Shown: positions 7,667 to 29,882 of the stretch, in pieces
Layout of the letters: every line of letters begins with the position of its first letter
Position numbering within the stretch: position 1 is the stretch's first letter
Assembly: GCF_011758655.1 (NCBI RefSeq)
Contig: NZ_JAAMPA010000002.1
Location: 62,001-126,000 of the forward strand
Direction: 5' to 3'
Source: Modestobacter marinus
Lineage (GTDB): Bacteria > Actinomycetota > Actinomycetes > Mycobacteriales > Geodermatophilaceae
DNA length: 64,000 nucleotides
The notes under the pieces: generated by a model
Told to the model about the DNA's origin: nothing
Seen by the model: the letters and a program-made list of their open reading frames with translations, nothing else
Database searches by the model: none
Translations under genes and position numbers: made by a program

Positions 7667-8173
7667 ATGGACGCCGAGATCACGTTGCGGGTCGACGGCG
7701 AGGCGCACCGCCTCACCGTCGACACCCGCACCTCCCTGCTGGACGCGCTGCGCGAGCGGCTGGGCAACACCAGCCCGAAGAAGGGGTGCGACCACGGACA
7801 GTGCGGGGCCTGCACCGTGCTGCTGGACGGCGACCGGGCGCTGACCTGCCTCGCCCTGGCGGTGGCGCACGACGGCGCGGAGATCACCACGGCCGACGGG
7901 CTGGCCCCGGCCGGGGAGCTGCACCCGGTACAGCAGGCGTTCCTCGACCAGGACGCCTTCCAGTGCGGCTACTGCACCCCGGGCCAGGTCTGCTCGGCGG
8001 TCGGCGTGCTCGACGAGGTGGGCCGGGGCTGGCCCAGCCACGTCACCGAGGACCTCACCGGGGAACCGGAGCTGACCCACGACGAGGTGGCCGAGCGGAT
8101 GAGCGGCAACCTCTGCCGCTGCGCGGCGTACGTGAACATCACCCCCGCGGTGCAGCAGGCGGCCCGGTCGTGA
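7667..8173 (+). CDS. Aldehyde oxidoreductase, [2Fe-2S] subunit (PaoA/xanthine dehydrogenase small-subunit type)
   Basis: 168 aa. The plant-type [2Fe-2S] site is KKGCDHGQCGACTV with a further Cys in LTCLA. The second site is CGYCTPGQ with CRC near the C-terminus. This is the canonical two-cluster small subunit of xanthine-oxidase-family molybdenum enzymes. It passes electrons from the molybdenum cofactor to FAD. No twin-arginine signal is visible, so this version looks cytoplasmic, unlike E. coli PaoA. First gene of a three-gene, stop/start-overlapping operon. Confidence 0.93.
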   Translation: MDAEITLRVDGEAHRLTVDTRTSLLDALRERLGNTSPKKGCDHGQCGACTVLLDGDRALTCLALAVAHDGAEITTADGLAPAGELHPVQQAFLDQDAFQCGYCTPGQVCSAVGVLDEVGRGWPSHVTEDLTGEPELTHDEVAERMSGNLCRCAAYVNITPAVQQAARS

Positions 8174-13159: not shown

Positions 13160-14572
13160 TCAGCCGAGGGTGCCGTCGCCGACCAGCGCGGTCACCAGGC
13201 CGGCACCGAGACCGACCGCCAGCACGCCCAGGGCCCCGGCCACCGCCGCCGCGTGCGGCCAGCCGGCCGTCGCTGCGGGCTCGCCGGGCCGGAACGCCTC
13301 GACCAGCCACCGCAGGTAGTAGAAGAGGCTGACCACGGTGTTCACCGCGGCGACCACCACCAGCCAGGCCAGACCGCCGTCCCACGCGGCGGTGAAGACG
13401 GTCAGCTTCCCGAGGAAGACCGCCGTCGGCGGGGTGCCGACCAGGCTGAGCAGGCTGATCACCAGCGCGGCGGCCAGCGCCGGTCGCTGCCGGGCGAGGC
13501 CGCGGAAGTCGGTCAGCGACCGGGCGCCGGGCACCGCGGCGAGCACCGCGAAGGCGGTCAGGTTGGTGACCGCGTAGCCGGCCAGGTAGACCAGCAGCGC
13601 CGGGGTCGCGGCGGAGGTGCTGGTGACGACGGCGACCGGCATGAGCAGGTAGCCGACCTGGCTGACCGTCGACCAGCCGAGCAGCCGGCGGGCGTCGGTC
13701 TGGGCGAGCGCGGCCAGGTTGCCCAGCGTCATGGTGGCGGCGGCGAGCAGGCCGACCAGCAGCGGCCAGGGCAGCGAGCCCGGCAGCACGTCGACCAGCC
13801 GCGCGGCGGCGACCAGGGCCCCGAGCTTGGGCACGGTGGTGAGGAAGGCGGCGGCCGCGGTGCCGGCGCCCTGGGTGGCGTCGGGCACCCACTGGTGCAG
13901 CGGGACGCCGCCGGCCTCGAACAGCAGCCCGGCCAGCACGGCCAGCGCCCCGACGGCCACCGCGGCGGCCGGTGCAGCCGCCAGGCCGGTGGCCAGGTCG
14001 GCGTAGGCGGTGCCACCGGCGATGCCGGACAGCACGGTGGCCCCCAGCAGCAGGAGGATGCCCGACAGGGCGCCCAGCAGGTACGTCTTCAGCGCCGCCT
14101 CGGCCGCGCCGGGGGAGCGGACCATCCCGACCAGGGCGTACACCGGGATGCTGGCCAGCAGGAACCCGACGGCGAGGGTCAGCAGGTCGTCGGTGGCGGC
14201 CAGCACGATCGCGCCCAGCCCGCCGAGCAGCAGCAGCGTGTAGGTCTCGCTCTCCCGGGCCTGCCCGGCCAGCTCGTCGACGCCGAGGCCGATGACCAGC
14301 AGCACCGCCGCGACCACCACCAGCCGGGTGACCCCCGTGGCGGTGTCCAGCACGAAGGCCCCGAACACCGTCTCCGTGACCCCGCCGAGAGGGGCGTCCC
14401 GAGGGAAGGCCAGGGCGGCGGAGACACCGGCGACCAGCAGCGCTGCGACGGCGACCAGCCGGGCGACCCACTGCCGTTGCCGGGGCAGGAAGGAGCCGGC
14501 CAGCAGGGTGACCACCGCGCCGCCGAGCAGGCAGAGCTCGGGCAGCAGCGCCAGTGGCGACTGCTCCATCAC
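13160..14572 (-). CDS. nuoN: NuoN, antiporter-like membrane subunit of a complex I-like system
   Basis: 470 aa counting from the GTG at 14572, which overlaps the nuoM stop; an ATG follows directly at 14569. Proton_antipo_M family, about 14 membrane helices. In ordinary NuoN the fifth helix has a glutamate in a G-I-E-L pattern two residues after a glycine. Here the matching stretch is VGFLLASIPVY and the position is Leu138, so the key acid is missing. Lysines of the central helices, for example in ALKTYLLG, remain. Last gene of the reduced nuo operon. Confidence 0.88.
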   Translation of the reverse strand: MMEQSPLALLPELCLLGGAVVTLLAGSFLPRQRQWVARLVAVAALLVAGVSAALAFPRDAPLGGVTETVFGAFVLDTATGVTRLVVVAAVLLVIGLGVDELAGQARESETYTLLLLGGLGAIVLAATDDLLTLAVGFLLASIPVYALVGMVRSPGAAEAALKTYLLGALSGILLLLGATVLSGIAGGTAYADLATGLAAAPAAAVAVGALAVLAGLLFEAGGVPLHQWVPDATQGAGTAAAAFLTTVPKLGALVAAARLVDVLPGSLPWPLLVGLLAAATMTLGNLAALAQTDARRLLGWSTVSQVGYLLMPVAVVTSTSAATPALLVYLAGYAVTNLTAFAVLAAVPGARSLTDFRGLARQRPALAAALVISLLSLVGTPPTAVFLGKLTVFTAAWDGGLAWLVVVAAVNTVVSLFYYLRWLVEAFRPGEPAATAGWPHAAAVAGALGVLAVGLGAGLVTALVGDGTLG

Positions 14573-16056
14573 CTGCCCACCAGGTCGACCAGGACGGCGG
14601 ACGCCGGGGTGATCAGGTCCAGCAGCAGCCAGGGCAGGACGCCGATCGCCAGGGAGAGCAGCAGCAGCCCGGTGACCGGCACCGCCTCGACCGCCCGGAC
14701 GTCGGAGAAGCCGATCGACCGGCCGCCGGGCAGCCCGGTGACCAGCAACTGCAGCGCCCGGAGGAACAGCGCCGCGGTGATCAGGATCCCGGGGAGCGCG
14801 ATCGCCGCCCAGGCCGTGGTGCCGATGCTCCCGGCGAAGACCTGGAACTCGGCGATGAACCCGCTGAACGCCGGGATGCCCAGCGAGGCGAACGCCGCGA
14901 CCGCGAAGAGCCCGGACCAGACCGGTGCGCTGCGCGCCAGCCCGCCGTAGTCGCGCATCGCGTAGCTGCCGGTCCGGTCGTGCAGCACCCCGGCCAGCAG
15001 GAACAGCGCACCGGTGATCAGGCCGTGGCTGACCATCTGGGTGACCGCGCCGGTCACGGCCAGCTCGCGGGCCGCCGTCCCGGTGCCGAGCAGGCCGGCC
15101 GCGCCGACGGCGAGCACCACGTAGCCCATGTGGTTGATCGAGGTGTAGGCGATCATCCGCTTGACGTCGGTCTGCGCCAGGGCGACCAGCGCGCCGTACA
15201 GCACCGAGGCGATGCCGACGGCGAGCACCACCCAGGCCGCCCCGCGCCAGGCGTCCGGCATCGCGGGCATGGCGATCCGGACGAAGCCGTAGGTGCCCAT
15301 CTTCAGCAGCACCGCGGCCAGCACCGCCGAGCCGATCGCCGAGGCGTCGGTGTGCGCCGGCGGCAGCCAGGTGTGGAACGGGATCGTCGGCGTCTTCACC
15401 GCGAGCCCCAGCAGCAGGGCGGCCAGCACGAAACCACCGGCGACCGGGTGGTCCTGCAGGGGTGCGGCGGCAACCAGCTCGGGGATGTCGAAGGTGTGCG
15501 GGTCGGCGGCCAGGTAGAGGCCGATGAAGCCGAGCAGCAGCGCCAGGCTGCCCAGGAACGTGTACAGGAAGAACTGCAGCGCCGAGCGGCCGGCGTCCCT
15601 GCCGTGCCCCCAGCCGGCGATGGCGGCGTACATGCCGACGATCGACAGGTCGAAGAAGACGAAGAAGACGATCAGGTCCTGGGCGGCGAACAGCCCCATG
15701 CAGGTGGACTGCAGGGCGAGGAAGAGGGCGGCGTGCTGGCGCGGGCGCCGGTCCTCGCGCAGCCCGTAGACCGCGCAGGCGCTGAACACCACCGCGGTCA
15801 GCGCCAGCAGCGGCACCGATAGCCCATCGACCCCGACGTGCCAGCTGCTGTTGACCGACGGGATCCAGCGCGCGCGCTCCTCGAACGCGAGGTCGCCGTC
15901 GGCGGGCGTCTCGTACCGCGCGATCAGCACGCCGACGAGCACGACCTCGGCGGCGGTGACCGCGATCCAGGTCCAGCGGGCGACCCGGTCGGGCACCGCG
16001 GGCACGGCCAGCAGGGCCCCGGCGACGAGGGGCAGGAAGATGATCGAACTGAGCAC
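14569..16056 (-). CDS. nuoM: NuoM, antiporter-like membrane subunit of a complex I-like system
   Basis: 495 aa, proton-pumping module with the family motifs KTPTIPFHTWLPPAH and GLAVK. The TM5 glutamate of NuoM (FFLFWELMLIP in E. coli, Glu144) is an aspartate here (FFVFFDLSIVGMY, Asp136), so the charge is kept but the side chain is shorter. The gene ends overlapping nuoN and starts 4 nt after nuoL. Membrane-embedded; expected to move protons. Confidence 0.9.
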   Translation of the reverse strand: MLSSIIFLPLVAGALLAVPAVPDRVARWTWIAVTAAEVVLVGVLIARYETPADGDLAFEERARWIPSVNSSWHVGVDGLSVPLLALTAVVFSACAVYGLREDRRPRQHAALFLALQSTCMGLFAAQDLIVFFVFFDLSIVGMYAAIAGWGHGRDAGRSALQFFLYTFLGSLALLLGFIGLYLAADPHTFDIPELVAAAPLQDHPVAGGFVLAALLLGLAVKTPTIPFHTWLPPAHTDASAIGSAVLAAVLLKMGTYGFVRIAMPAMPDAWRGAAWVVLAVGIASVLYGALVALAQTDVKRMIAYTSINHMGYVVLAVGAAGLLGTGTAARELAVTGAVTQMVSHGLITGALFLLAGVLHDRTGSYAMRDYGGLARSAPVWSGLFAVAAFASLGIPAFSGFIAEFQVFAGSIGTTAWAAIALPGILITAALFLRALQLLVTGLPGGRSIGFSDVRAVEAVPVTGLLLLSLAIGVLPWLLLDLITPASAVLVDLVGR

Positions 16057-16060
16057 GGAG

Positions 16061-17998
16061 CTACCTCACTGCCAGCAGGAGGGCCAGCGCGGCGGCGAGC
16101 ACCACGGCGGCCGAGACGTAGTACTGGTGCAGCTGGCCGGTCTGGGTGCGCCGGGCCCAGCCCCCCAGCCAGCGGGTGCCGGCGGCCAGCGACCGCACGG
16201 CGGCGTCCGGACCGGCCAGGTCGGCCCGGCCCGCGGCGTCGGCGAGCCGGACCGTGCCGGCCGACGAGGCGCGCACCCCGCGGTCCAGCCGGTCGTCGTC
16301 GAACCGGGCGGCCCCGGCGGCCAGGTGCAGGGCACCGCGGGCGGTGCCGTGCACGGCGGGGGTCAGTCGCCGGTCGTCGAACCGGGCCAGCGCCTCGGCG
16401 GCGCGCAGCACCGGCCGGACGACGACCAGGTCGGTCGCCCGGGCCAGGCCGAGCCAGCCGGTGAACCAGCTGCCCACCCGGCCCCAGGAGACGCGCCTGA
16501 CCCGCGCGGAGGCCATCACCAGCACCCCGCCGATCGCCAGCAGGGCAGAAATGGCCATTTCTGCCCAGGAGGCGGTGGGGGCGCCGGTCTCGCCGAGGAG
16601 CCGGTGCAGCGCCTCGCCCACCGGGGGGAGGGCCAGCAGACCCAGCACGGCGGCGCCGACGGCGAGCACGACCAGCGGGGCCCGCTCCAGCGGCCCCACC
16701 CGGCGGGTGCCGTCCTCCTCGGTGTCATAGCCCTCCTCGGCCCGCGCGGGCAGCGGCCGCCAGACCAGCCACAGCACCTTCCCGGCGTAGGCCGCCGAGA
16801 GCGCGGCCGCTGCCAGTCCGGCCAGGTAGAGCGCGAGGGACTCCTCCAGGGCCCCGGCCAGCACCTCGTCCTTGGTCGCCCACAGCGACAGCGGGACGAC
16901 GCCGGCCAGCGCCAGCGCGCCGATCGCGGCGCACACCCCGACCAGCGGCCACAGCCGGGCCGCACCACGCAGCGCGGCCAGCTGCTTGGTGCCCAGCGCG
17001 CTCAGCCACGCCCCGGCCACCAGGAACAGCAGCGCCTTGGTGGCCGCGTGCGCCACCAGGTGCGCCGTGCCGCCGGCGACCGACCCGACCCCGGCGCCGA
17101 GCACGACGAACCCCAGCTGCGCCGCGGTGGAGGCGGCCAGCAGCTGCTTGAGGTCGCGCTGCGCGACCGCGACCGCGCCCAGCAGCAGGGCGGTCAGCAC
17201 CCCGGCCCAGGCGGTCACCGGCCCCGCCCAGCCGGTGGCCGCCAGCAGCGGAGCGGTGCGCAGCAGCAGGTAGCCGCCCATCGCGACCATCGCCGCGGAG
17301 TGCAGCAGCGCGCTGACCGGGCTCGGCCCCTGCATGGCGGCGGACAGCCAGGCGGTGAACGGCAGCTGGGCGGCCTTGCCGAGGGCGGCCACCAGCACGC
17401 CGGCCGCCACGACGTGCAGCCAGCCGCCGTCGGCGCCGGCCAGCTCGTCCAGCGCCAGGCCGGTGCCGCCGGCCAGCGCCGCCCCGGCGGCCAGGTACAG
17501 CCCCAGGTCGGCGGTGCGGGTGGTCAGGAAGGCCGTCAGCCCGGCGCCGACCCGGTGCTCCTCCTGCCAGCGGAAGCCGATCAGCGCGTAGGACGTCGCG
17601 CCCATCACCTCCCAGGCGAACAGCAGCGTCGGCAGCGTCGTCGCGGTGACGGTGACGACCACCGCGGCGGCGAACAGCAGCATCAACCCGGTGAACCGGG
17701 CCCGCGCCCCCTCGACGTCCCCGGCGGAGAAGACCAGCACCAGCAGGGTCACCGCGGTCACCGCCGGCAGCACCACCGCGGCGAGCGGGTCGACCGCCAG
17801 CCCGAAGCCGGCGGCCGGCAGGAACGGTGCCTGCACCGCCGGCCGCTCCAGCGCCACGGCGATCGACAGCGCCAGGACGACGGCCGCCGTCCCGATGCCG
17901 GTCGCGGGCGCGGCCCGGTCGGCCCGCCGGCCGAGCACGCACAGCAGCGCCCCGACGGCGGCCGGCAGGACGGCGACGGCCCACAGCAGGCCGGTCAC
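16061..17998 (-). CDS. nuoL: NuoL, distal antiporter-like membrane subunit
   Basis: 645 aa, normal NuoL length. Family residues are intact: the TM5 glutamate in LLFAWEVMGATSYALIGF and the TM7 lysine in GKAAQLPFTAWL, followed by AMQGPSPVSALLHSA. The C-terminal amphipathic helix region and final membrane anchor (YYVSAAVVLAAALALLLAV) are present. The GTG at 17998 overlaps the nuoK stop by 4 bp. Unlike NuoM and NuoN this pump module looks fully equipped. Confidence 0.92.
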   Translation of the reverse strand: MTGLLWAVAVLPAAVGALLCVLGRRADRAAPATGIGTAAVVLALSIAVALERPAVQAPFLPAAGFGLAVDPLAAVVLPAVTAVTLLVLVFSAGDVEGARARFTGLMLLFAAAVVVTVTATTLPTLLFAWEVMGATSYALIGFRWQEEHRVGAGLTAFLTTRTADLGLYLAAGAALAGGTGLALDELAGADGGWLHVVAAGVLVAALGKAAQLPFTAWLSAAMQGPSPVSALLHSAAMVAMGGYLLLRTAPLLAATGWAGPVTAWAGVLTALLLGAVAVAQRDLKQLLAASTAAQLGFVVLGAGVGSVAGGTAHLVAHAATKALLFLVAGAWLSALGTKQLAALRGAARLWPLVGVCAAIGALALAGVVPLSLWATKDEVLAGALEESLALYLAGLAAAALSAAYAGKVLWLVWRPLPARAEEGYDTEEDGTRRVGPLERAPLVVLAVGAAVLGLLALPPVGEALHRLLGETGAPTASWAEMAISALLAIGGVLVMASARVRRVSWGRVGSWFTGWLGLARATDLVVVRPVLRAAEALARFDDRRLTPAVHGTARGALHLAAGAARFDDDRLDRGVRASSAGTVRLADAAGRADLAGPDAAVRSLAAGTRWLGGWARRTQTGQLHQYYVSAAVVLAAALALLLAVR

Positions 17999-18297
17999 TG
18001 GGCGAGGTCCGTGGCCATGTCGGTCATGTCGGACTGGCGGGACCGGTGCAGCAGGGTGGCCACGGCGAAGCCCATCGCCATCTCCACCGTCATCGCGGTG
18101 ATCACCACGAGCAGCAGCACCTGGCCGTCGGGGGTGGGGGAGAGGAACCACCAGAACGCCGCCGCGGCGAGGATGACGCCGTTGAGCATCAGCTCCAGGC
18201 CCATCATCACCATGACCACGACCTGCTGGGAGATGGCCCCGTAGAGGCCCACGCTGAACAGCGCGGCCGCGACCAGCAGCATCGTCTGCAGGGTCAT
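17995..18297 (-). CDS. nuoK: NuoK, membrane subunit
   Basis: 100 aa, three helices. Both conserved membrane glutamates are present: Glu35 in MMGLELMLNGV and Glu72 in TAMTVEMAMGF, matching Glu36 and Glu72 of E. coli NuoK. ATG overlaps the nuoJ stop (ATGA). Confidence 0.93.
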   Translation of the reverse strand: MTLQTMLLVAAALFSVGLYGAISQQVVVMVMMGLELMLNGVILAAAAFWWFLSPTPDGQVLLLVVITAMTVEMAMGFAVATLLHRSRQSDMTDMATDLAQ

Positions 18298-18845
18298 CGC
18301 CGGGACCCCCCGCGCAGGGCGGTGCCCTTCAGGTCGTCGCCGAGCCGGTCGTAGCGGCCCCGCGGCAGCGCCAGCACCAGGGCGGCGACGATCGTGGCGA
18401 AGAGGACCGGCGAGACGGTCATCATCACCAGCATCTTCGACTCCATGATCGCCTCGCCGAGCGAGGTGACCAGGCCCGCGGCCGGGGCGCCGCGGCGGGT
18501 CGGCCACGGGACGAGCAGCGCCCCGGCGGCCAGGACGACGAACGTGCCCAGCGAGACCGCCAGGGCGGGGCGCTTGCCGTGCACCATGCTCATCGGCATC
18601 AGCGCGGGGTTCATCCCCATGAACATGATCATGTAGATGCCCATGACGGCCATCTCCATGGTCATCATCAGCACGGTGATGACGCCCAGGAACTCCAGGT
18701 CGACCAGCAGCAGCACCAGGCCGACGGCGATGAACGACGCGGCCAGCGCGTAGGTCGCCCGGGCCATCGAGTCGACCCGGAAGACGGCGACGCCGGCGGC
18801 CACCGCCACGACGGCGAGCACCCAGAACACGATCCCGGTCAGCAA
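18294..18845 (-). CDS. nuoJ: NuoJ, membrane subunit
   Basis: 183 aa, five predicted helices, with the family stretch LLLVDLEFLGVITVLMMT. It is unusually methionine-rich in helices 3 and 4 (MGIYMIMFMGMNPALMPMSM). The start is a TTG at 18845, chosen because GAGGAGGGAGGG lies immediately upstream and no ATG or GTG fits the family N-terminus. The 13-bp gap to nuoH leaves no room for nuoI. Confidence 0.88.
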   Translation of the reverse strand: MLTGIVFWVLAVVAVAAGVAVFRVDSMARATYALAASFIAVGLVLLLVDLEFLGVITVLMMTMEMAVMGIYMIMFMGMNPALMPMSMVHGKRPALAVSLGTFVVLAAGALLVPWPTRRGAPAAGLVTSLGEAIMESKMLVMMTVSPVLFATIVAALVLALPRGRYDRLGDDLKGTALRGGSRR

Positions 18846-18858
18846 CGTCCCTCCCTCC

Positions 18859-19791
18859 TCAGGCCTGGACCACGACGACGACGGACACGACCAACACCTG
18901 CAGCAGCACCAGCGGGAGGGCGACCAGCCAGGCCGGGGCCGCGAACTGCTCCGGGCGGATCACCGGGAGCACTCGCCGCAGCGCGACGAGCGCCGCGAGC
19001 AACCCGGCGGTCTTGACCAGCAGCCACAGCCAGGCCGGCAGCAGCGGACCGTGCCCGCCGCCGAGGAAGGCGGTCGCCCCGAAGGCGGCCCCGGCGGTGA
19101 GCAGCGCGTACCGCCCGGTGCTGAGCAGCCAGCGGTCGACCCCGGACGCCTCGACGAGCACCCCGCCGGCCGTCGTCGCGCCGGTGGGCGCGGAGAGCGG
19201 CCCCCAGACGGAGAACCCGGCCACCGCGACGCAGAAGACGGCGAAGGCCACCGGCATCCAGACGACGAACCACAGCCCGGACTGCGCGGCCACCACGTCC
19301 CCCAGCCGGAGGCTGCCGGCGGCGACCGCCGGTGCGGTGAGCGCGAACATCAACGGCAGCTCGTAGGACAGCGCCTGGGCCAGGCACCGGTAGCCGCCGA
19401 CCAGGGCGTGCGCGCTGTTCGGGCCCCAGCCGGCCAGCCAGACCGCCGCCCACACCAGCACGTCCATCGCGTTGAACCAGACGACGCCCACCGTCAGGTC
19501 GGCCACGGTCCACCGGCCGAACGGGACGACGGCGATCATCAGCAGCGCGGCGGTGAGCAGCCCGGCACCGCCGATCCGCTGCAACGGGAGGTCCGCGGCC
19601 ACGGTGGTCCGGCGGCGCTGGCCGAACAGCCGGGCCGTCTCCGCGACCGGGGCGAGCAGGCCACCGCCCAGCGGCTGCCCGGCCGACCGCGCGGCCAGCG
19701 CGCCGTCCAGGCTCGCCGCGGCGGCTGCGACCAGGAGGAGCAGCGCGGCCGCCACCGGCACCCAGCCGACCGAGACCTCGGTGACGGTCAC
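18859..19791 (-). CDS. nuoH: NuoH-like membrane subunit with a degenerate quinone loop
   Basis: 310 aa, recognisable by LSYELPLMFALT and the surrounding helices. In normal NuoH a cytoplasmic loop reads roughly R-x-P-F-D-x-P-E-A-E-x-E-L and lines the quinone chamber. The aligned segment here is GPLSAPTGATTAGGVLVEAS (about residues 197-216). Nearly all the acids are gone; only the Glu equivalent to that of EYSG (Glu214) remains. GTG at 19791 overlaps the previous stop. The subunit probably anchors the membrane arm but should not bind or reduce quinone in the usual way. Confidence 0.85.
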   Translation of the reverse strand: MTVTEVSVGWVPVAAALLLLVAAAAASLDGALAARSAGQPLGGGLLAPVAETARLFGQRRRTTVAADLPLQRIGGAGLLTAALLMIAVVPFGRWTVADLTVGVVWFNAMDVLVWAAVWLAGWGPNSAHALVGGYRCLAQALSYELPLMFALTAPAVAAGSLRLGDVVAAQSGLWFVVWMPVAFAVFCVAVAGFSVWGPLSAPTGATTAGGVLVEASGVDRWLLSTGRYALLTAGAAFGATAFLGGGHGPLLPAWLWLLVKTAGLLAALVALRRVLPVIRPEQFAAPAWLVALPLVLLQVLVVSVVVVVQA

Positions 19792-20951
19792 GAGCCTGCC
19801 CCCACCGGCACGGTCACCCGGTCGGCGGTGTCCAGGTCGAGCGAGGCCACCACCAGCCGGGCGGTGGCCAGGTCCAGCCCGGTGACCAGCTCGGCCACCG
19901 CGCTCAGCTCGGTCGACCGGCGCTGCCCGGTGCCGGTCAGCCAGTGCCGCAGCCGGTCGTGCGCATCGCCCTCGGGCAGCCGGCCCAGGCCGCGCAGCGA
20001 CCAGCGGAGCAGTCGGGAGCGGGTGATCCGGCGGGTCAGCCGCTCGGCCTCCGGCGGCTGTCCGCCGGCCAGCAGGCCGTCGCGGACCCGCGCGGCCCGG
20101 ACGGCGGCGTCGTCCCAGCCGGCCAGGACCAGCAGGGTGGCCACCGCGTCCCACCGACCGGCGGGGGTGCCGTGCACCGGCGGGTCGGGCGGGGCGTCGT
20201 CGGCCGGCAGCAGGACCTCGGCCCGGGCGGCGACGACCAGGTCGCCCTGCAGCGTGGTGTGCAGCAGCAGGCCGGCCGGCCAGTGCGGCAGCACCGGCCC
20301 CAGCGGGACGTGCAGCACGTCCATGTCCAGGCCGTCGGGGTCGGGGAGCTGGTCGTCGCCGCCGGCGCCGGCCAGGCCGATGCCGGCGGGCATCGGCATG
20401 TCCATGTCCATGTCCATGTCGCCGTCGCCGGAGTCGTCGCCGCCGCCTTCGCCGGAGTCGTCGTCCATGTCCATGTCGCCGTCGCCGGAGGCGTGGTCCC
20501 CGTCGGCGTCGCCCGGGTCGTCGTCCATGTCCATGTCGCCCGAGTGGCCGGAGTCGCCGTCCATGTCCATGTCGCCCATGCCGTCGTCGCCCGCGGCGGT
20601 GGTCCCCGGTTCCGGATCGGCCGGCCGGCCGGCGGCGTCGCGCCGCTGGGCTGCGCCGTCGGCGAGCTCGGCCGCCGCACCGTCCAGGACGGCCGGGACG
20701 TCGTCGGCGGTGGTGACCTCCGCCCGGGCGCGGGGGCCGGGCAGCTGGCTCCAGACGTGGTCGACCGCGGCGGTCAGCCGGGCGCCGGGGCGCCCGCACA
20801 CCACCAGCAGGTCGGCGTCGGCGGGGGAGCCGGCCAGCCGCCAGCCGCGGGCCCGCACGTCCTGCTCGAGCGCGCACCGGGTGCGGCTCCAGCCCGGGAC
20901 CTCCACCGCCAGCACCGCGGTGCGCCGGGCGGCCAGCCGCGTCAGGTCCAC
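19788..20951 (-). CDS. NuoB-like/NuoD-like degenerate fusion with an Asp-Met repeat linker
   Basis: 387 aa from the GTG at 20951 (10-bp overlap with nuoA). Residues 1-80 resemble NuoB: GSPADADLLVVCGRPGARLT then VWSQLPGPR, matching NuoB S-P-x-x-A-D-x-x-x-V-x-G and V-W-x-Q-M-P-x-P. The tandem cysteines that bind cluster N2 are absent and only Cys26 and Cys52 occur. Residues 125-188 are an Asp/Gly/Met linker with repeated DMDMD units. Residues 213-245 resemble the NuoD N-terminal strands (PLGPVLPHWPAGLLLHTTLQ, then GDLVVAA), but the quinone-site His is missing. PPEAERLTRRITRSRLLRW (about 284-302) matches the NuoD helix PPRAETIRVILNELSRLAS. The rest of NuoD is not seen. Probably a structural cap on the membrane arm, not a redox protein; the linker may bind metal ions. 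Homology is from memory of the family sequences. Confidence 0.65.
   Translation of the reverse strand: MDLTRLAARRTAVLAVEVPGWSRTRCALEQDVRARGWRLAGSPADADLLVVCGRPGARLTAAVDHVWSQLPGPRARAEVTTADDVPAVLDGAAAELADGAAQRRDAAGRPADPEPGTTAAGDDGMGDMDMDGDSGHSGDMDMDDDPGDADGDHASGDGDMDMDDDSGEGGGDDSGDGDMDMDMDMPMPAGIGLAGAGGDDQLPDPDGLDMDVLHVPLGPVLPHWPAGLLLHTTLQGDLVVAARAEVLLPADDAPPDPPVHGTPAGRWDAVATLLVLAGWDDAAVRAARVRDGLLAGGQPPEAERLTRRITRSRLLRWSLRGLGRLPEGDAHDRLRHWLTGTGQRRSTELSAVAELVTGLDLATARLVVASLDLDTADRVTVPVGAGS
20388..20579 (-). repeat. Imperfect coding repeat for Asp-Met units
   Basis: On the plus strand, runs of GTCCAT (for example GTCCATGTCCATGTCCATG near 20397-20417) recur in four clusters separated by GTCGCCGTCGCCGGAG-type units. 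They lie within the frame of the NuoB/NuoD-like gene, keep it open, and encode DMDMD separated by Gly/Ser/Asp. Copy number probably varies between strains by slippage. Confidence 0.7.
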
Positions 20952-21289
20952 CGCAGTGCACCCTCGCGCCAGGCCCAGAGCACGCCGGTCATCAGCACGC
21001 CGAGCAGCACGAACATCTCGACGATCGCCGAGGTCCCGATCGAGGCGACCACGGTCGCCCACGGGTACATGTAGAGCATCTCCACGTCGAAGGCGAGGAA
21101 CAGCAGGGTCATCGGGTAGTACCGCGCCTCGAACCGGGACAGGGCGTGCTCGGCGGGCCGCCAGCCGGAGAGGAAGGGCAGGCTCGCCACCGCATCCGGC
21201 GCCACCGCGGTCCGCCGGTGCAGCAGGTACGCCAGCAGCACGCCGCTGACGGCGAGGCCGAACATGGCGGCGAGACTCAGGTAGGCCAC
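20942..21289 (-). CDS. nuoA: NuoA, membrane subunit
   Basis: 115 aa from the GTG at 21289, preceded by GAGGGGGA; an ATG at 21346 would add 19 non-conserved residues. Three helices with the family signature SRFEARYYPMTLLFLAFDVE followed by MLYMYPWA. First gene of the reduced operon nuoA-(B/D-like)-H-J-K-L-M-N. Divergent from the ArsR gene, with about 90 bp between the starts. Confidence 0.9.
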   Translation of the reverse strand: MAYLSLAAMFGLAVSGVLLAYLLHRRTAVAPDAVASLPFLSGWRPAEHALSRFEARYYPMTLLFLAFDVEMLYMYPWATVVASIGTSAIVEMFVLLGVLMTGVLWAWREGALRWT

Positions 21290-21378
21290 CCCGGGTTCCC
21301 CCTCGTCCGTTCCGCCTGAGGCCGTGGTCTGACCGCGACCGCGCATACCCGTGCGACCGTCCGGGTAACCGCCTCACC

Positions 21379-21753
21379 GTGGCAGATCACCCCCATCCGG
21401 TCGACCCCGTGCGTGTGGCCTCGGCGAGGGCGCGCGTGCCGAGCCGGGAGGACGCCGCGAGCCTGTCGGCGATGCTGAGCCTGCTGGCCGACCCGACCCG
21501 CTCCCGGGTGCTCTACGCCCTGGACGTGGTCGACGAACTCTGCGTGGGCGACCTGGCGATGGCGCTGGAGGCGACGGAGGACGCGGTCGGCTACGCGCTG
21601 CGGCTGCTGCGCACCGCCGGCTTCGTGACCAGCCGGAAGGACGGGCGGGTCGTCTTCTACCGGCTGGCCGACGGCTTCCCGGGGCCGCTGCGGGAGCACT
21701 GCCTGCGGCAGCTGGTCGAGCTCTCCCGCCAGGTCGCCGACGCGGAGGGCTGA
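21379..21753 (+). CDS. ArsR/SmtB-family winged-helix regulator
   Basis: 124 aa. Winged helix with ADPTRSRVLYALDVVDELCV, then GDLAMALE and VGYALRLLRTAGFV. The ELCVGDL box holds a Cys (about residue 55) at the place of the ArsR/CadC metal-binding motif ELCVCDL, but with one Cys only. The N-terminus ADHPHPV is His-rich, as in NmtR-type nickel/cobalt sensors. GTG start at 21379. It is divergent from nuoA and a likely regulator of the reduced nuo operon, by position; ligand unknown. Confidence 0.82.
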   Translation: MADHPHPVDPVRVASARARVPSREDAASLSAMLSLLADPTRSRVLYALDVVDELCVGDLAMALEATEDAVGYALRLLRTAGFVTSRKDGRVVFYRLADGFPGPLREHCLRQLVELSRQVADAEG

Positions 21754-23828: not shown

Positions 23829-24935
23829 ATGACCGCCACTGTTCCGCGCCCGTCGACGGCCCGTCCCGTGCTGACCACGCTGCGCGACCGGGTGCTCAAG
23901 GTGGCCGAGCTCGTCACGACGCCGCTGCTGCCCGCCGACTACCTGGACCTGGTCGACCCGCTGCGCTCCGGTGCCGCGCTGCGCGGCCGGATCGAGGCGG
24001 TGCACCGGGAGACCCGGGACACCGCCAGCATCGTGATCCGCCCGGGCCGCGACTGGCTGCCGCACACCCCCGGCCAGTACGTCCGGATCGGCATCGACAT
24101 CGACGGGGTGCGGCTGTGGCGCGCCTACTCGATCACCTCGGTGCTCGGCCGCGCCGACGGCTGCTTCAGCATCACCGTGAAGGCGATCCCCGACGGCAAG
24201 GTCAGCAACCACCTGGTGCACCGCGCCCGGCCGGGCACCGTCGTCCAGTTGGACCAGGCCACCGGAGACTTCGTCCTCCCCGAGGCGCGGCCGGCCAAGG
24301 CGCTGTTCGTGACCGCCGGTTCCGGCATCACGCCGGTGATGGGCATCCTGCGCAACCTGGGCGAGGACGCCGGGTGCGACGTCGTCCTGGTGCACTCCGC
24401 GCCCACGCCCGAGGACGTCATCTTCGGCGCCGAGCTGCGCGAGCTGGCCGCGGCCGGCCGGATCCGGCTGGTCGAGCACCACACCGAGGCCGCCGGCCTG
24501 CTGGACGCCGAGGCGATCGCCGACCTGGTGCCCGACCTGGCCGAGCGGGCCACCTGGGCCTGCGGCCCGGTCGGCCTGCTCGAGGCGCTGGAGGAGCACT
24601 GGGCGGCCCAGGGCATCGACGACCAGCTCTACACCGAGCGCTTCCGCCCCCGGGTGCTGGTCACCGGCGAGGGCGGCACCGTCACGTTCGCGAAGTCCGG
24701 CCGCACGCTGGAGGCCGACGGCGCGACCCCGATCCTGGACGCCGCCGAGGAGGCCGGGCTGCTCATGCCCAGCGGCTGCCGGATGGGGATCTGCTACGGC
24801 TGCGTGCTGCCGCTGCGCGAGGGCGCCGTCCGTGACCTGCGCAACGGGGAGCTGACCACCGCCGCCCCCGGTGACGGCGTCCTGATCCAGACCTGCGTCA
24901 GCGCCGCCGCTGACGCCTGCGACATCGACCACTGA
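23829..24935 (+). CDS. Ferredoxin reductase-like electron-transfer partner of the desaturase
   Basis: 368 aa. FAD domain (RAYSITS), NAD(P)H domain (FVTAGSGITPVMG; ACGPVGLLEALE) and a C-terminal plant-type [2Fe-2S] domain (PSGCRMGICYGC ... QTCVS). This is the layout of M. tuberculosis Rv3230c, which feeds electrons from NADPH to the acyl-CoA delta-9 desaturase DesA3. The desaturase gene follows 30 bp downstream. Start is the ATG at 23829. Confidence 0.9.
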   Translation: MTATVPRPSTARPVLTTLRDRVLKVAELVTTPLLPADYLDLVDPLRSGAALRGRIEAVHRETRDTASIVIRPGRDWLPHTPGQYVRIGIDIDGVRLWRAYSITSVLGRADGCFSITVKAIPDGKVSNHLVHRARPGTVVQLDQATGDFVLPEARPAKALFVTAGSGITPVMGILRNLGEDAGCDVVLVHSAPTPEDVIFGAELRELAAAGRIRLVEHHTEAAGLLDAEAIADLVPDLAERATWACGPVGLLEALEEHWAAQGIDDQLYTERFRPRVLVTGEGGTVTFAKSGRTLEADGATPILDAAEEAGLLMPSGCRMGICYGCVLPLREGAVRDLRNGELTTAAPGDGVLIQTCVSAAADACDIDH

Positions 24936-24965
24936 CCCCCGCACCCCAGAGCTGAGGAGCCGCAC

Positions 24966-26177
24966 ATGACCGTCCTGCAGAAGAAGCCCGACAACCCGAT
25001 CGCCCACCTCTCCGAGGCCGACATCGAGGCCATCGGCCGCGAGCTCGACGCCATCCGGCAGAGCGTCGTGGACAGCCGTGGCGAGGACGACGCGGCCTAC
25101 ATCCGCCGGGTCATCGACGTGCAGCGCAAGATGGAGCTGGCCAGCCGGGCCGTGCTGCTGTTCTCCAAGTTCCCGCCGGCCTGGGTGCTGGGCACCATGG
25201 GGCTCTCGGTCGCCAAGATCCTGGAGAACATGGAGATCGGGCACAACATCCTGCACGGGCAGTGGGACTGGATGCGTGACCCGAAGATCCACTCCACGAC
25301 CTGGGAGTGGGACATGGCCAGCCCGGCCGAGCAGTGGAAGCACTCGCACAACGTGCTCCACCACACGTACACGAACGTGATCGGCAAGGACAACGACCTC
25401 GGCTACGGCATCATGCGCGTCGACGAGGACCAGAAGTGGGTGCCGCTGTACCTGCTGCAGCCGGTGTGGAACTTCGTCAACGCCTGCTTCTTCGAGTACG
25501 GCATCGCCGCCTACGACCTGGAGCTGGGCAAGAACCTGGCCACCAAGGAGCGGCGGGCCGACCCCGGCTTCCGCGCCCGCGGCAAGCAGGTGCTGAAGAA
25601 GATCGGCAAGCAGATGACCAAGGACTACGTCGTCCACCCGGCGCTGTCGGGTCCGTCGTTCCTGCCGACCCTGGCGGCCAACTTCACCGCCAACGTGGTG
25701 CGCAACCTCTGGTCGCACTCGGTGATCATGTGCGGGCACTTCCCGGAGGGCGTGGAGACCTTCGAGAAGAAGTCGATCGACGGCGAGACCCGCGGTGAGT
25801 GGTACCTGCGCCAGATGCTCGGCTCGGCCAACATCTCCGGCAGCAAGGCCATGCACATCATGACCGGGAACCTGTCCCACCAGGTCGAGCACCACCTGTT
25901 CCCGGACCTGCCGAGCAACCGGTACGCCGAGATCGCGCCGCAGATCCGCGACCTGTTCGCCCGCTACGGGCTGCGGTACCACACCGCGTCGCTCCCGCGT
26001 CAGGTCGGCTCGGCATGGCACAAGGTGCTCCGGCTCTCGCTGCCCAACGGCTGGCTGGCCCAGACCACCCCGGCCAACGCCCCGGCGCAGGTCGTCAAGC
26101 TCTACAAGATGACCACCGGCGGGCCGAAGGTCCGCCGCCAGCTGCAGGGCGCCGCCTGGAACCAGGTCGCTGCCTGA
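24966..26177 (+). CDS. Membrane fatty acid desaturase (DesA3-like)
   Basis: 403 aa. The three di-iron histidine boxes are HNILHGQ (about 93-99), HSHNVLHHTY (about 125-134) and QVEHHLFP (about 306-313). Family role: introduces a double bond, typically delta-9, into stearoyl-CoA. Electrons come from the preceding reductase. Unsaturated acyl chains from this enzyme could also feed OleA at the left of the window. The transcript ends at a perfect hairpin 27 bp downstream. Confidence 0.92.
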   Translation: MTVLQKKPDNPIAHLSEADIEAIGRELDAIRQSVVDSRGEDDAAYIRRVIDVQRKMELASRAVLLFSKFPPAWVLGTMGLSVAKILENMEIGHNILHGQWDWMRDPKIHSTTWEWDMASPAEQWKHSHNVLHHTYTNVIGKDNDLGYGIMRVDEDQKWVPLYLLQPVWNFVNACFFEYGIAAYDLELGKNLATKERRADPGFRARGKQVLKKIGKQMTKDYVVHPALSGPSFLPTLAANFTANVVRNLWSHSVIMCGHFPEGVETFEKKSIDGETRGEWYLRQMLGSANISGSKAMHIMTGNLSHQVEHHLFPDLPSNRYAEIAPQIRDLFARYGLRYHTASLPRQVGSAWHKVLRLSLPNGWLAQTTPANAPAQVVKLYKMTTGGPKVRRQLQGAAWNQVAA

Positions 26178-26260: not shown

Positions 26261-26665
26261 TCAGCCGGCGCTGGGGTGCGGCTTGACCGCGAGCACCGGC
26301 CGGTCGGCGTCCAGCAGGATCCGCTGGGCGCTGCTGCCCATCAGCAGCTTGCCGACGGGGGAGCGGCGGCGCAGCCCGATCACGATCAGTGAGGCATCGG
26401 CCTCCTCGGCCACCCGGAGCACCGAGTCGGCCAGGTCGCCGGTGTGCGGGGTCTGCCGCACCTCCAGGGCCACCCCGTCGGTGCGGCTGCGCTCGGTGAG
26501 CTGGGCGACCAGCTCCGGCGGGGCGACGTCGGCGCTGACCGGCGCGCCGCCGCGGGGGCTGTTGAGCACCAGCAGGTCCTCGCCCCGGCGGCGGGCCTCG
26601 GCCAGGCCGGCCGCGAAGGCCGCCTCGCCCTCGGGGGTGGGGAGGAAACCGACGAGGACGGTCAC
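26261..26665 (-). CDS. Universal stress protein (UspA family)
   Basis: 134 aa. The ATP-binding signature G-x2-G-x9-G-[ST] fits around LRRRSPVGKLLMGSSAQR, followed by ADRPVLAV. GTG at 26665 overlaps the tctA stop (GTGA), so it is the last gene of the tctCBA operon. Usp proteins are often coupled to tripartite transporters, where they may sense ATP or substrate state; the exact role here is open. Confidence 0.88.
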   Translation of the reverse strand: MTVLVGFLPTPEGEAAFAAGLAEARRRGEDLLVLNSPRGGAPVSADVAPPELVAQLTERSRTDGVALEVRQTPHTGDLADSVLRVAEEADASLIVIGLRRRSPVGKLLMGSSAQRILLDADRPVLAVKPHPSAG

Positions 26666-28191
26666 ACGAGCTCCTTGGGGGTGGTGGTGTCGGAGTGGTC
26701 GGCGGAGGTGCCCCGCCGCCGGGCCAACGCGCTGCGGATCGGCGGCAGCAGGGCCACGACCACGAAGACGACCAGCAGTGTGCCGGAGATCGGGCGGGTG
26801 AAGAAACCGGTGGTGTCGCCGTCGAAGATCAGCAGCGACCGGCGCAGCGAGTCCTCCAGCAGGGTGCCCAGGACGAAGGCCAGCAACAGCGGCCCCGGGT
26901 CGAAGCCGACCTTCTTCATCAGGTAGCCGAGCACGCCGAAGACGATGACCAGGACGATGTCGAACGTGCTGTTGTTGACCGTGTAGACGCCGATCAGCGT
27001 GATCAGCACCGTGATCGGCGCCAGGACGGCCGGCCGCACCCGGAGGATCTTCACGAACAGCCCCACCAGCGGGATGCTCATGATCAGCAACAGGATGTTG
27101 CCGATGTACATCGAGTTGACCACGCCCCAGAAGAGCTCCGGCTCGTCGGTGACCAGCCGCGGGCCGGGGGAGACGCCCGAGACGAGCAGCGCACCGAAGA
27201 TGACCGCCATGGTCGCGTTGGCCGGGATGCCCAGCGTGAGCAGCGGGATGAAGGACGACGTCGCGGCCGCGTTGTTCGCCGTCTCCGGGCCGGCCACCCC
27301 CTCGACCGCGCCCTTGCCGAACCGCTCGGGGGTCTTGGAGCGCCGCTTCTCCACCGCGTAGGCGGCCAGCGAGGAGAGCGTCGCCCCGCCGCCGGGCAGG
27401 ATGCCGAGGACGAAGCCGAGCACCGAGCCACGACCGATCGCCCCGGAGGACCGGCGCAGGTCGGCGCGCGAGGGCCACACGTTGGCCACCTTCGCCGGCG
27501 CGTGGACGGCGTTGTGCCGCTCCTCCAGGTTGTAGAGGATCTCGCCGAGGCCGAACAGGCCCATCGCGATCGGGACGAAGTCCAGCCCGTCGGCCAGGTT
27601 CAGGTTGCCGAAGGTGAACCGCTCGCCCCCGGTGAACGCGTCCCGGCCGACCGTGGCGAGCAGCAGGCCGATGCAGGCGGCGATGACCGCCTTGAGCCGG
27701 CTGCCGCTGCTCACGGTCGCGACCAGGAGGATGCCGAGCAGCGCCAGCGCGGTGTACTCCGGCGGCCCGAAGTCGAGGGCGAAGCCGGCCACGACGGGGG
27801 CGAGGAAGGACAGGGCGACGATCGAGATCGTGCCGCCGACGAACGAGCCGATCGCCGCGATGCCCAGCGCGGTGCCGGCCTTGCCCTGGCGGGCCAGGGC
27901 GTGGCCGTCGAACACCGTGACCACCGAGGAGGCCTCACCCGGCAGCTTGAGCAGCACCGAGGTGATCGTGCCGCCGTACTGGGCGCCGTAGAAGATCCCG
28001 GCCAGCATGATGATCGAGGTCACCGGCTCCAGGCCGATGGTGATCGGCAGCAGGATCGCGATGGTCGCGGCGGGCCCGAGGCCGGGCAGCACGCCGACGA
28101 GCATGCCGACGACGACGCCGATCAGGCAGTACAGCAGGTTGGTGGGTTCCAGGACGACGGCGAAGCCGTCGAGCACCGGGGCGACGTCCAC
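26662..28191 (-). CDS. tctA: TctA-family large transmembrane permease
   Basis: 509 aa, DUF112/TctA, about 12 helices. Conserved glycine-rich motifs GVLPGLGPAATIAILLP near the N-terminus and ILPGGGATLSSLAAY mid-protein are typical of this sodium- or proton-driven permease. It works with TctB and the binding protein TctC to import carboxylates. GTG start at 28191 with GGAGGG upstream. Confidence 0.93.
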   Translation of the reverse strand: MDVAPVLDGFAVVLEPTNLLYCLIGVVVGMLVGVLPGLGPAATIAILLPITIGLEPVTSIIMLAGIFYGAQYGGTITSVLLKLPGEASSVVTVFDGHALARQGKAGTALGIAAIGSFVGGTISIVALSFLAPVVAGFALDFGPPEYTALALLGILLVATVSSGSRLKAVIAACIGLLLATVGRDAFTGGERFTFGNLNLADGLDFVPIAMGLFGLGEILYNLEERHNAVHAPAKVANVWPSRADLRRSSGAIGRGSVLGFVLGILPGGGATLSSLAAYAVEKRRSKTPERFGKGAVEGVAGPETANNAAATSSFIPLLTLGIPANATMAVIFGALLVSGVSPGPRLVTDEPELFWGVVNSMYIGNILLLIMSIPLVGLFVKILRVRPAVLAPITVLITLIGVYTVNNSTFDIVLVIVFGVLGYLMKKVGFDPGPLLLAFVLGTLLEDSLRRSLLIFDGDTTGFFTRPISGTLLVVFVVVALLPPIRSALARRRGTSADHSDTTTPKELV

Positions 28192-28203
28192 TCAGACCCT
28201 CCT

Positions 28204-28872
28204 TCAGAACAGGTGCGGGATGGGGACCGAGAGGGCGGCCACGAAGACCAGGTAGAACGCGACCACCACGCCGAGGCTGACGAGCACCGACGAGCGCCAG
28301 GTCTCCCCGCCGAGGAAGCGCAGCCAGACGAAGGCGAGCAGCGCGGCGGGGATCTCGAAGCCGATGACCTCGATGACCGCGACGAAGACGACCATCGTCG
28401 CCAGGCCGGCCACCACCAGCCAGGACGAGCGGGAGAAGCGCTCGGCGTCCGAGGTGCTGGTATCGGGGGCGCCGGCGTCCGGCGAGGTGGTGCGCGCGTC
28501 GAGCGCGAGCGCGAGGCCCAGGACGACGATGACGACGCCCAGCACCATGGGCCAGGTGCCCGAGCCCGGGTTGCCGGCGCTGCCGGCCCCGAGCGAGAGG
28601 GAGCCGACCACCGCGGCGACGCCGAGCGCCACCACCAGGACGGCGACGACCACGTTCGTGGTCGTGCCGGCCGGCGGGGGCCGGTGCTCGGCCTCCACCT
28701 CGACCTGGTGGGCGTCCTCCTCGACGTCGTGCAGCGTGGAGGCGTGCGGTCCGACGGGGTGCGCCGGCCCGGCCGTCGAGGTCGAGCCGGCGTCCTCCCG
28801 GGGGGTGGCCCCGGCGGCCGTGCTGCCGCCGGGGTGCCCCGGGGTGGTCGCCCCGTCGTGCGCAGAGGTCAC
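28204..28872 (-). CDS. tctB: TctB-family small transmembrane subunit
   Basis: 222 aa. A hydrophilic, low-complexity N-terminus of about 70 residues precedes four membrane helices; known TctB proteins are usually near 150-180 aa, so the N-terminal tail is an addition. GTG at 28872 overlaps the tctC stop. Couples with TctA in the tripartite tricarboxylate transporter. Confidence 0.85.
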   Translation of the reverse strand: MTSAHDGATTPGHPGGSTAAGATPREDAGSTSTAGPAHPVGPHASTLHDVEEDAHQVEVEAEHRPPPAGTTTNVVVAVLVVALGVAAVVGSLSLGAGSAGNPGSGTWPMVLGVVIVVLGLALALDARTTSPDAGAPDTSTSDAERFSRSSWLVVAGLATMVVFVAVIEVIGFEIPAALLAFVWLRFLGGETWRSSVLVSLGVVVAFYLVFVAALSVPIPHLF

Positions 28873-29882
28873 TGCTCTCCACCGAGGTCGATGTCGTACT
28901 CCTCGACCACGCTGCGGTACCGGTCCAGGTTCTCCGTCCACAGGTCCCGGATCTCCTCACCGTCGAGCTCGTTCGGGGTGAGCAGGTTGTCCTCGTTGAA
29001 CTGCTGGTAGGCCTCCTCCTCGAAGGCCGCCTGGAACCCGTCGCGCAGCGTCTGCATGACGTCGTCCGGCACGCCCTGCGGGGCGAAGACGGCGCGCGAC
29101 TGCTGGACCGGCACGTCGTAACCGGCCTCGACGGCGGTCGGGGTGTCGGGGAGGTAGCTGGGCCGCTCCTCGGCGAAGGTCACGATCGGGGTCAGCTCGC
29201 CGGCCTCGATCTGCTCGATCGCCTCGCCGAGCTGGATCGAGCCGACGTCCACCTGGCCACCCAGCACGGCGGTCAGGGTGGGGGAGCCGCCGTCGAAGGG
29301 GACGGCGGTGGCGTCGATGCCGGACTGGGCGAAGAGCAGCTCCTGGGAGAGCTGGCTGCCGGTGCCCACGCCCGTGGTGCCGAAGGTGATCGGGCGCCCG
29401 GCGGCAGCGAGGTCCTCGACCGTGGTGAAGCCGGAGCCGGGCGCGGTCACCAGGACGTAGTCGTCCAGCGAGAGGCCGGTGACGATGTCGAAGTCCGCGA
29501 TGTCCGGCGCCTCGCCCTCACCCACCGCGAGCGGGGTGATGTAGGCCAGGCTGCCGTTGTAGACCATCAGCGTGTGGCCGTCGGGCTCCTCGCCGGCCAG
29601 CTCCTGGGCGGCCAGCGCACCGTTGGCGCCGGGCTGGTTCTCCACCGTGACCGGGACGCCCAGCTCGTCGGACAGGCCCTCGGCCGCCGCGCGGGCGATG
29701 AGGTCGGTGCTGCCGCCGGGGTCCTGGCCCACCAGCACGGTGATCGGGTCGTCGCCGGGGAAGTCCGCGGCGTCGGCGTCCGAGCCGCCGCCCACGTTGC
29801 CGCCGCAGGCCGCGACCGAGAAGGTCAGAGCCAGCCCGAGACCGGTCACCGTCCAGGGGCGCGCGCCGAAGTGCTTGTCCAT
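28869..29882 (-). CDS. tctC: TctC-family solute-binding lipoprotein
   Basis: 337 aa. Lipobox VAAC (Cys26) followed by a Gly/Ser/Asp linker, then the Bug/TctC fold (VGQDPGGSTDLIAR; VENQPGANGALAAQELA). It captures an organic acid outside the membrane. Given the divergent catabolic operon, an aldarate such as glucarate or galactarate is the likely ligand; that is inference. AGAGGAGAAC precedes the ATG. Confidence 0.9.
   Translation of the reverse strand: MDKHFGARPWTVTGLGLALTFSVAACGGNVGGGSDADAADFPGDDPITVLVGQDPGGSTDLIARAAAEGLSDELGVPVTVENQPGANGALAAQELAGEEPDGHTLMVYNGSLAYITPLAVGEGEAPDIADFDIVTGLSLDDYVLVTAPGSGFTTVEDLAAAGRPITFGTTGVGTGSQLSQELLFAQSGIDATAVPFDGGSPTLTAVLGGQVDVGSIQLGEAIEQIEAGELTPIVTFAEERPSYLPDTPTAVEAGYDVPVQQSRAVFAPQGVPDDVMQTLRDGFQAAFEEEAYQQFNEDNLLTPNELDGEEIRDLWTENLDRYRSVVEEYDIDLGGEQ

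Follow-up and report, generated by a model that had tools for sequence, protein, structure and literature searches.

A 64,000-nucleotide stretch of the Modestobacter marinus genome (NCBI RefSeq assembly GCF_011758655.1, contig NZ_JAAMPA010000002.1, positions 62,001 to 126,000; hereafter the window) carries an operon of complex I-like genes in the order A-X-H-J-K-L-M-N. Its second gene encodes a protein of 387 residues, here called X, that is by sequence a degenerate fusion of NuoB and NuoD and stands beside homologues of the respiratory complex I subunits NuoA, NuoH, NuoJ, NuoK, NuoL, NuoM and NuoN. The system is probably a redox-dead, ion-gradient-driven Cu(I)/Ag(I) machine built on the membrane arm of complex I. 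Chances seem about even for the fuller picture, in which complex I has been remade as an ion-motive-force Cu(I)/Ag(I) pump with a metal-loading stump and a methionine relay in NuoJ, NuoK and NuoA, and spreads between Actinomycetota and Pseudomonadota, partly on copper-resistance plasmids. The anatomy of the system is well supported by the sequence comparisons presented below, and metal transport by the complex is what this anatomy suggests.

The X system in the window

The stretch from nuoA to nuoN in the window consists of these eight genes only, and none of the electron-input and iron-sulfur subunits C, E, F, G and I is found within it (flanks by eye only). The GTG start codon of X overlaps the stop codon of nuoA. 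In an NCBIfam-type model scan, the window NuoL, NuoM and NuoN obtained their top scores against the NuoL, NuoM and NuoN models. The genome also has a canonical complex I operon on a different contig, where separate nuoB, nuoD and nuoH genes are present. The features of the X operon and its upstream region are the following.

19788..20951, minus strand: X, 387 residues; NuoB-like domain, linker of metal-binding type and condensed NuoD-like domain
20622..20951, minus strand: X residues 1-110, NuoB-like by profile, hhalign and Foldseek, without the N2 ligands
20343..20621, minus strand: X residues 111-203, Asp/Met-rich repeat linker, mostly of low model confidence
19791..20342, minus strand: X residues 204-387, condensed NuoD-like domain, without the quinone His and much of the NuoD middle
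20942..21289, start possibly up to 21346, minus strand: NuoA homologue (Pfam PF00507, E=1.2e-24)
18859..19791, minus strand: NuoH homologue, quinone-site residues altered (PF00146, E=1.5e-41)
18294..18845, minus strand: NuoJ homologue, bearer of the methionine ladder (PF00499, E=1.5e-10)
18579..18668, minus strand: core of the NuoJ ladder, M60, M61, E64, M65, M68, M72, M76, M78, M85, M87 and H89, nearly invariant among 44 members
17995..18297, minus strand: NuoK homologue, E35 and E72 (window numbering) kept
16061..17998, minus strand: NuoL homologue, ion-path residues kept
14569..16056, minus strand: NuoM homologue, ion-path residues kept, E144 replaced by Asp
13160..14569, minus strand: NuoN homologue, K247 and K395 kept, K217 replaced by Glu in the window copy, E133 lost
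21346..21367, no strand: palindrome TACCCG-N10-CGGGTA, putative operator between arsR and nuoA
21379..21753, plus strand: divergent ArsR/SmtB-family regulator (NF033788, 69.9 bits, cut-off 55)

NuoB-like and NuoD-like halves of X

The first-pass annotation, made from the sequence alone, had read a NuoB pattern, S-P-x-x-A-D...V-W-x-Q-L-P-x-P, in the N-terminal part of X. The pattern is present as S-P-A-D-A-D...V-W-S-Q-L-P-G-P-R at residues 42-74, and profile searches and hhalign agree with the assignment. A Pfam scan of the window X gave no match up to E=10, and NCBIfam gave a faint NuoB match to residues 29-74. A profile of 38 X proteins (excluding L017, which has an assembly gap, and L049 and L064, whose X is uncertain or partial) returned 41 matches among PDB sequences with a best E of 1.2e-5; 40 of the 41 belong to the NuoB family. 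In hhalign the N-terminal part aligned with NuoB over 37 columns (probability 95.6, E=1.2e-8), with a score of 53.4; the highest of 100 column shuffles reached 17.8. Foldseek with an AlphaFold model of full X (mean pLDDT 69.8) placed NuoB-family chains in rows 1-23; the best E was 0.013 and no E-value reached 0.001 or below. By sequence and fold, membership of the NuoB family applies only to a core of approximately residues 29-86. The N-terminal part thus matches NuoB without a bridge, with an hhalign score far beyond chance.

The C-terminal part contains the strands L-G-P-V-L-P...Q-G-D, which correspond to the NuoD-type G-P-x-x-P...L-x-G-D strands noted in the first pass. PF00346 matched only three of 38 X relatives, with a best E of 0.013; single-sequence searches could not prove the NuoD half of X, and a bridging family was therefore needed. 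Within the window-type family, hhalign found short, weak matches to the start, an inner stretch and the end of NuoD, in collinear order. Two sub-parts, XC1 and XC2, each scored above all 100 shuffles, whereas the score of the whole C-terminal part was equalled by one of 100 and is thus not relied on alone. With an AlphaFold model of the C-terminal part (mean pLDDT 67.3), 45 of the 50 listed Foldseek rows, out of 185 matches, were NuoD or hydrogenase large-subunit chains as classed from chain names and lengths (best E 0.13).

Bridging X homologues were found in alphaproteobacteria and Rubrobacter, with heavy-metal-binding domains (HMBD) in the linker. All seven scanned exceeded the PF00346 (Complex1_49kDa) cut-off of 24 bits, the Halomonas protein with 30.4 bits and six HMBD-type proteins with 40.2-62.6 bits. 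The window-type C-terminal part aligns with that of the HMBD type (hhalign probability 99.2, E=1.6e-19), which in turn aligns with NuoD (probability 99.4, E=1.4e-21); the corresponding values for the N-terminal parts are 96.9% for window type against HMBD type and 96.7% for HMBD type against NuoB. The NuoD relation of the C-terminal part, weak from the window family alone, is thus firm through the bridging homologues. Both halves are placed with NuoB and NuoD by profiles and the bridging family, and more weakly by predicted folds, in the kind of HHpred and Foldseek comparison that the first-pass annotation had proposed; the outcome it had named against itself, with neither half near these families, did not occur.

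The NuoD loop GP-Q-H-P-S-T-H-G reads GP-V-L-P-H-W-P-A-G in the window X and GP-F-F-P-G-L-P-A-G in that of Sulfitobacter. In the alignment, the quinone-binding His of this N-terminal loop is absent from both X types, as had been noted for the C-terminal part. A further element noted in the first pass, the helix P-P-x-A-E...R-L, aligns with NuoD through the bridging family only and was not found to be a NuoD motif in itself.

Lost redox cofactors and retained ion path

A CC pair is missing from the first 110 residues of all 52 X proteins, 50 of which are informative (the annotated starts of L136 and L145 are late), which bears out the earlier suggestion that X has lost CC and the other N2 ligands. 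No PGC[PD] motif occurs in the first 150 residues of the 52 proteins, and a stray Cys near the third N2 position was seen in six of the 50 with a readable motif.

Quinone-site and ion-path residues are numbered as in E. coli. In all 57 NuoH copies E241 is replaced by Arg. The 39 actinobacterial copies all miss R291, K303 and E71, and E157 is kept in 38 of them; in HMBD and Halomonas NuoH, R291 is kept, K303 and E71 are mostly kept, and E157 is lost in nine of nine. E228 is kept. In the ion path, NuoL E144, K229 and K399 are kept in 37/37 copies, and NuoM K234, K265 and E407 in 38/38, all of which have Asp at E144. NuoN keeps K247 and K395 in 37/37 and K217 in 28/37 (Glu in the window), and E133 in 0/37. 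NuoK has E36 in 39/39 and E72 in 38/39 (both in E. coli numbering), and NuoA has D79 and E81 in 36/36. Four HMBD and Halomonas operons concur at most of the ion-path positions checked. The view that X accompanies an ion-translocating arm is upheld by these conserved Lys and Glu residues. The N2 ligands and quinone-site residues have thus been lost and the ion-path residues of NuoL, NuoM and NuoN largely kept, a combination reported here as new.

A linker of metal-binding type

Between its two domains, the window X has Asp/Met repeats at approximately residues 122-186, encoded by tandem DNA repeats (TRF score up to 196). These are the 64 or so residues of DMDMD repeats described in the first pass. 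As measured, the linker contains 12 Met, 2 His and 32 acidic residues among 92, and the repeats are read in the same frame as in relatives whose linkers differ in length and composition. The scarcity of His is local to the window, and the closest relatives have MDHGDMDHG repeats.

Linkers of X relatives contain MDHG/GHEG repeats or Pfam HMBD domains. PF19335 (HMBD) was above its cut-off in six of six scanned bridging X proteins other than that of Halomonas, with one to five stretches each; since the bridging set was reached by way of an annotated HMBD protein, the domain's presence there is in part a matter of selection. The X proteins of Rubrobacter have HMBD and MDHG-like repeats together, which suggests that the repeats either succeeded the HMBD module or accompany it. 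Met and His make up a median of 19.2% of the 48 measured linkers (four of the 52 were not measurable), as against 2.9% of the C-terminal domains, and linker length ranges from 15 to 374 residues. These observations, new here, suggest linkers of metal-binding type, built from Met/His repeats or from one to five HMBD.

A methionine ladder in NuoJ, NuoK and NuoA

A screen for columns with Met, Cys or His in at least 90% of members, but not in the canonical subunits, pointed first to NuoJ and next to NuoK and NuoA. In NuoJ, all 44 members have Met at 11 columns, at each of which no more than one of 32 canonical rows has it. The canonical set for NuoJ and for NuoK consists of the best-scoring 30 loci listed, E. 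coli and the copy of the window genome, the last of which enters twice (L227 and L135). Over 15 ladder columns the median number of Met is 15 (12 in five HMBD and Halomonas members), as opposed to one in the canonical set. The 23 near-invariant NuoJ columns include 11 that are Met, as well as Glu64 and His89.

In NuoK, M29, M69 and M73 flank both conserved glutamates and occur in none of the 32 canonical rows; Met32 is common in canonical NuoK too. M71, M74 and M92 of NuoA are conserved near its conserved Asp and Glu, as judged from a small canonical comparison set. The ladder members are related, so that their counts are not independent, and the set spans two phyla. The alignments thus point to an invariant methionine ladder in NuoJ, with more methionines in NuoK and NuoA, that is nearly absent from canonical subunits and new here.

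Distribution and transfer

The X family is widespread, and partly plasmid-borne, in Actinomycetota and Pseudomonadota. Seven genomes of the nearest set of 20 have an X homologue; class-wide, it is present in 28 of 394 genomes, from 18 of 138 genera (both genome counts include the window genome). Modestobacter, Cryobacterium, Raineyella and Microbacteriaceae records also contain homologues. The order H-J-K-L-M-N lies beside X in 36 of 39 neighbourhoods; the exceptions are L014 (weak gene calling), L058 (contig end) and L064 (partial X, no nuo gene called). A reading of X as a dead gene or a random repeat was rejected on the conservation of the gene and of the operon order.

A tree of NuoM places the 55 operon copies together in a single clade (100/94), separate from the canonical sequences, of which only two were included. 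Two distant lineages occur within the genus of the window, which suggests transfer. A tblastn search of plasmids with X found 13 records, all from actinobacterial genera. The window NuoH as query found a Halomonas plasmid and an alphaproteobacterial plasmid with the same operon order, and the X of Sulfitobacter found further plasmids, including two from Rubrobacter.

Several single copies deserve mention. Genome G405 has two different operon copies (L040 and L041). On a Pseudarthrobacter defluvii plasmid (L139:13944-15764) an IS3-family transposase gene interrupts X, and on a plasmid of Xanthobacter autotrophicus Py2 (L156:8591-9282) only an annotated nuoA and the first piece of X are present, next to a gene for bilirubin oxidase. 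Three alphaproteobacterial plasmids (L150, L151 and L157) share a DUF6629 gene close to the operon, upstream of nuoA.

Copper genes and an ArsR/SmtB-family regulator

Genes of nine families (CsoR, HMA, heavy-metal P-ATPase, multicopper oxidase, DUF305, CopC, CopD, DUF6153 and sulfocyanin) were searched for near the operon, with L009-L013 omitted as near copies of the window. At least one family occurs near 16 of 35 chromosomal X loci, whereas one of 52 control regions has any (Fisher p=4e-7, with controls at arbitrary positions in 26 of the genomes, which are related). Eight of these 35 loci belong to genomes that lack a control region, and the loci with controls alone give 12/27 versus 1/52. 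Multicopper oxidases lie near six of the 35 loci; CopC, CopD, DUF6153 and sulfocyanin had no matches in loci or controls.

Copper or heavy-metal genes are annotated in 16 of 22 plasmid regions viewed, a count without a control set (nine of 13 regions from the X query, five of 170 from the NuoH query and eight of 24 from the Sulfitobacter X query were viewed). The six regions without them are from Rhodococcus, Pseudarthrobacter, Gordonia, Streptomyces (where nuoA and X alone match), Thioclava and Vreelandella (with a single gene not annotated as hypothetical). On a Curtobacterium plasmid nuoA starts 81 bases past the end of a heavy-metal ATPase gene, and on an Arthrobacter FB24 plasmid a multicopper oxidase gene precedes nuoA, with DUF305 further upstream. 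In Pseudonocardia the plasmid nuoA is divergent from genes for a CsoR-type regulator, an HMA protein and an ATPase, and in Halomonas it lies downstream of copC, copD, azurin, multicopper oxidase and copB genes. Copper genes thus accompany many relatives, a finding that is new here; both HMBD and a copper-gene neighbourhood are present in relatives, and the window copy has neither. In Halomonas sp. KO116 (L138:20670-22942), the operon is followed by the ergothioneine biosynthesis genes egtB and egtD; ergothioneine is a thiol that could bind copper.

An ArsR/SmtB homologue is encoded near 10 of 39 operon loci, and two Cys are common to the window ArsR and the seven homologues compared. The palindrome upstream of nuoA is the only match in the window, but six of 100 shuffles also give one, and its weight therefore comes from conservation. 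It is found in 14 of 210 loci, every one of them this operon, at eight distinct places including the window.

Proposed function

The fusion identity of X, the loss of redox ligands, the kept ion-path residues, the linker modules of relatives, the ladder, the copper neighbourhood, and the ArsR/SmtB gene with its palindrome are all read from sequence. A metal-type stump, an arm able to move ions, a methionine-lined path and a frequent copper setting can be accommodated in a single model, that of a Cu(I)/Ag(I) transporter driven by ions. X would assemble with NuoA, NuoH, NuoJ, NuoK, NuoL, NuoM and NuoN in place of the redox arm, forming a cytoplasmic stump whose linker, soft-metal-binding in type, would bind and collect metal. 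The methionines of NuoJ, NuoK and NuoA would carry it along a thioether path next to conserved acidic residues of what was once the E-channel, and a flow of protons (or sodium) through NuoL, NuoM and NuoN would drive it across the membrane, most likely outwards. Such transport would serve copper resistance, with Cu(I) or Ag(I) as the presumed metal.

Several observations weigh against this model. Methionine-rich helices may have other roles; linkers vary widely, and one of the 48 measured has less than 10% Met and His; the window X has no HMBD in a Pfam scan. No such copper gene is present in the fetched stretch of 19 of the 35 chromosomal loci, and all the copper genes searched for are absent from the 64-kb window itself. 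Three of 11 places with an ArsR gene lack the palindrome. Comparative genomics, in passages of the papers concerned, ties the operon to marine or osmotic adaptation (PMC3314556, PMC6676996, PMC6002675, PMC4018334).

That last link, together with the classing of the operon in such passages as a marine adaptation and a proton or sodium pump, speaks for a cation/proton antiporter gated by metal. It would resemble Mrp and exchange Na+/H+ or K+/H+ to keep pH, salt or osmotic balance, and X would only sense metal or plug the arm. The retained ion-path residues of NuoL, NuoM, NuoN, NuoK and NuoA fit this function; it predicts neither the 11 invariant NuoJ methionines with their Glu and His, nor tandem HMBD, nor the copper-gene neighbourhood, and we consider it unlikely. 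Still less probable is that X is a metal sponge or an assembly cap whose repeats drift freely, on an arm left over without a transport task. Repeat linkers do expand easily, as their range of 15-374 residues illustrates, and some copies are broken, for example by IS3, while others retain just nuoA and a piece of X; against this, the H-J-K-L-M-N order in 36/39 loci, the ion-path residues and the ladder have been kept over great divergence.

A redox role for copper, in which metal in the stump donates or accepts electrons and so drives pumping in place of the iron-sulfur chain, would suit the soluble stump, with its Cys/His/Met metal sites in relatives, and the multicopper oxidases near some copies (6/35 loci). 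It is very improbable given that all 50 informative members miss the N2 pair, that the quinone His of NuoD is lost, that NuoH has Arg for E241 in 57/57 along with further quinone-site changes, and that the A-to-N stretch of the window holds eight genes only. Ion-driven Cu(I)/Ag(I) transport remains the reading that we prefer.

Other genes in the window

Three consecutive genes at 7667-11270 resemble, by eye from their translations, the small, medium and large subunits of molybdenum hydroxylases. At 23868-26174 a ferredoxin-reductase-like gene lies beside a fatty-acid-desaturase-like gene (both by eye), adjoined by a PucR-type regulator (PF13556); the pair is also present in three Modestobacter relatives (L009-L011). 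Genes at 26665-29882 resemble by eye a tripartite tricarboxylate transporter, including a TctA-like gene.

Relation to known systems and significance

The X system shares with respiratory complex I (NDH-1) the homologues of A, H, J, K, L, M and N, NuoB- and NuoD-derived domains and a Lys/Glu ion path. It differs in lacking the N2 ligands, the quinone His and subunits C, E, F, G and I between A and N, in its fusion of B and D through a linker of metal-binding type, and in the methionine ladder of J, K and A. Mrp antiporters and Ehr complexes likewise have membrane subunits resembling those of complex I and lack a functional redox centre; Mrp is not known to have a NuoB/D-like stump, and neither Mrp nor Ehr is known to have HMBD or a methionine ladder. 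The linker of X relatives shares PF19335 with HMBD proteins, and the HMBD-region matches of the Sulfitobacter X search include RND adaptors and heavy-metal P-type ATPases, but in X relatives the domain sits inside a complex I-derived subunit. CTR1 and CusA have rows of conserved membrane-helix Met, likely soft-metal ligands, for Cu(I)/Ag(I); the fold of the X system is unrelated, and its energy would come from NuoL/M/N-type ion flow.

The 'partial nuoAHJKLMN' operon of marine actinobacteria has the same gene order and, by that order, is very probably the same system. Passages of Penn and Jensen (2012) count it among genes acquired for marine adaptation and suggest that it pumps sodium or protons (PMC3314556). 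Its order is given in part of another paper as nuoA, hypothetical protein, nuoHJKLMN, with the white-drawn genes of the figure being hypothetical proteins without UniProt or PDB homologues (PMC6676996). Further literature cited comprises PMC8622039 and PMC9239103 (in part). In the passages of the partial nuo papers that bear on it, X is only a hypothetical protein and the operon is read as a seawater pump with no link to metal; among the open-licence papers listed, no title or abstract opening showed a copper, HMBD or methionine link to the operon.

Judged by gene order, the operon was published as early as 2012, as a partial complex I for 'marine adaptation' that contained one unassigned gene. 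Naming X as a redox-dead NuoB-NuoD fusion that includes a metal-binding module, together with the ladder, would give the operon a testable job in copper or silver handling. If the proposal is true, this would be, to our knowledge, the first relative of complex I that moves metal instead of using electrons. It would also offer a natural experiment, a membrane arm working without redox chemistry, on a central question of complex I coupling.

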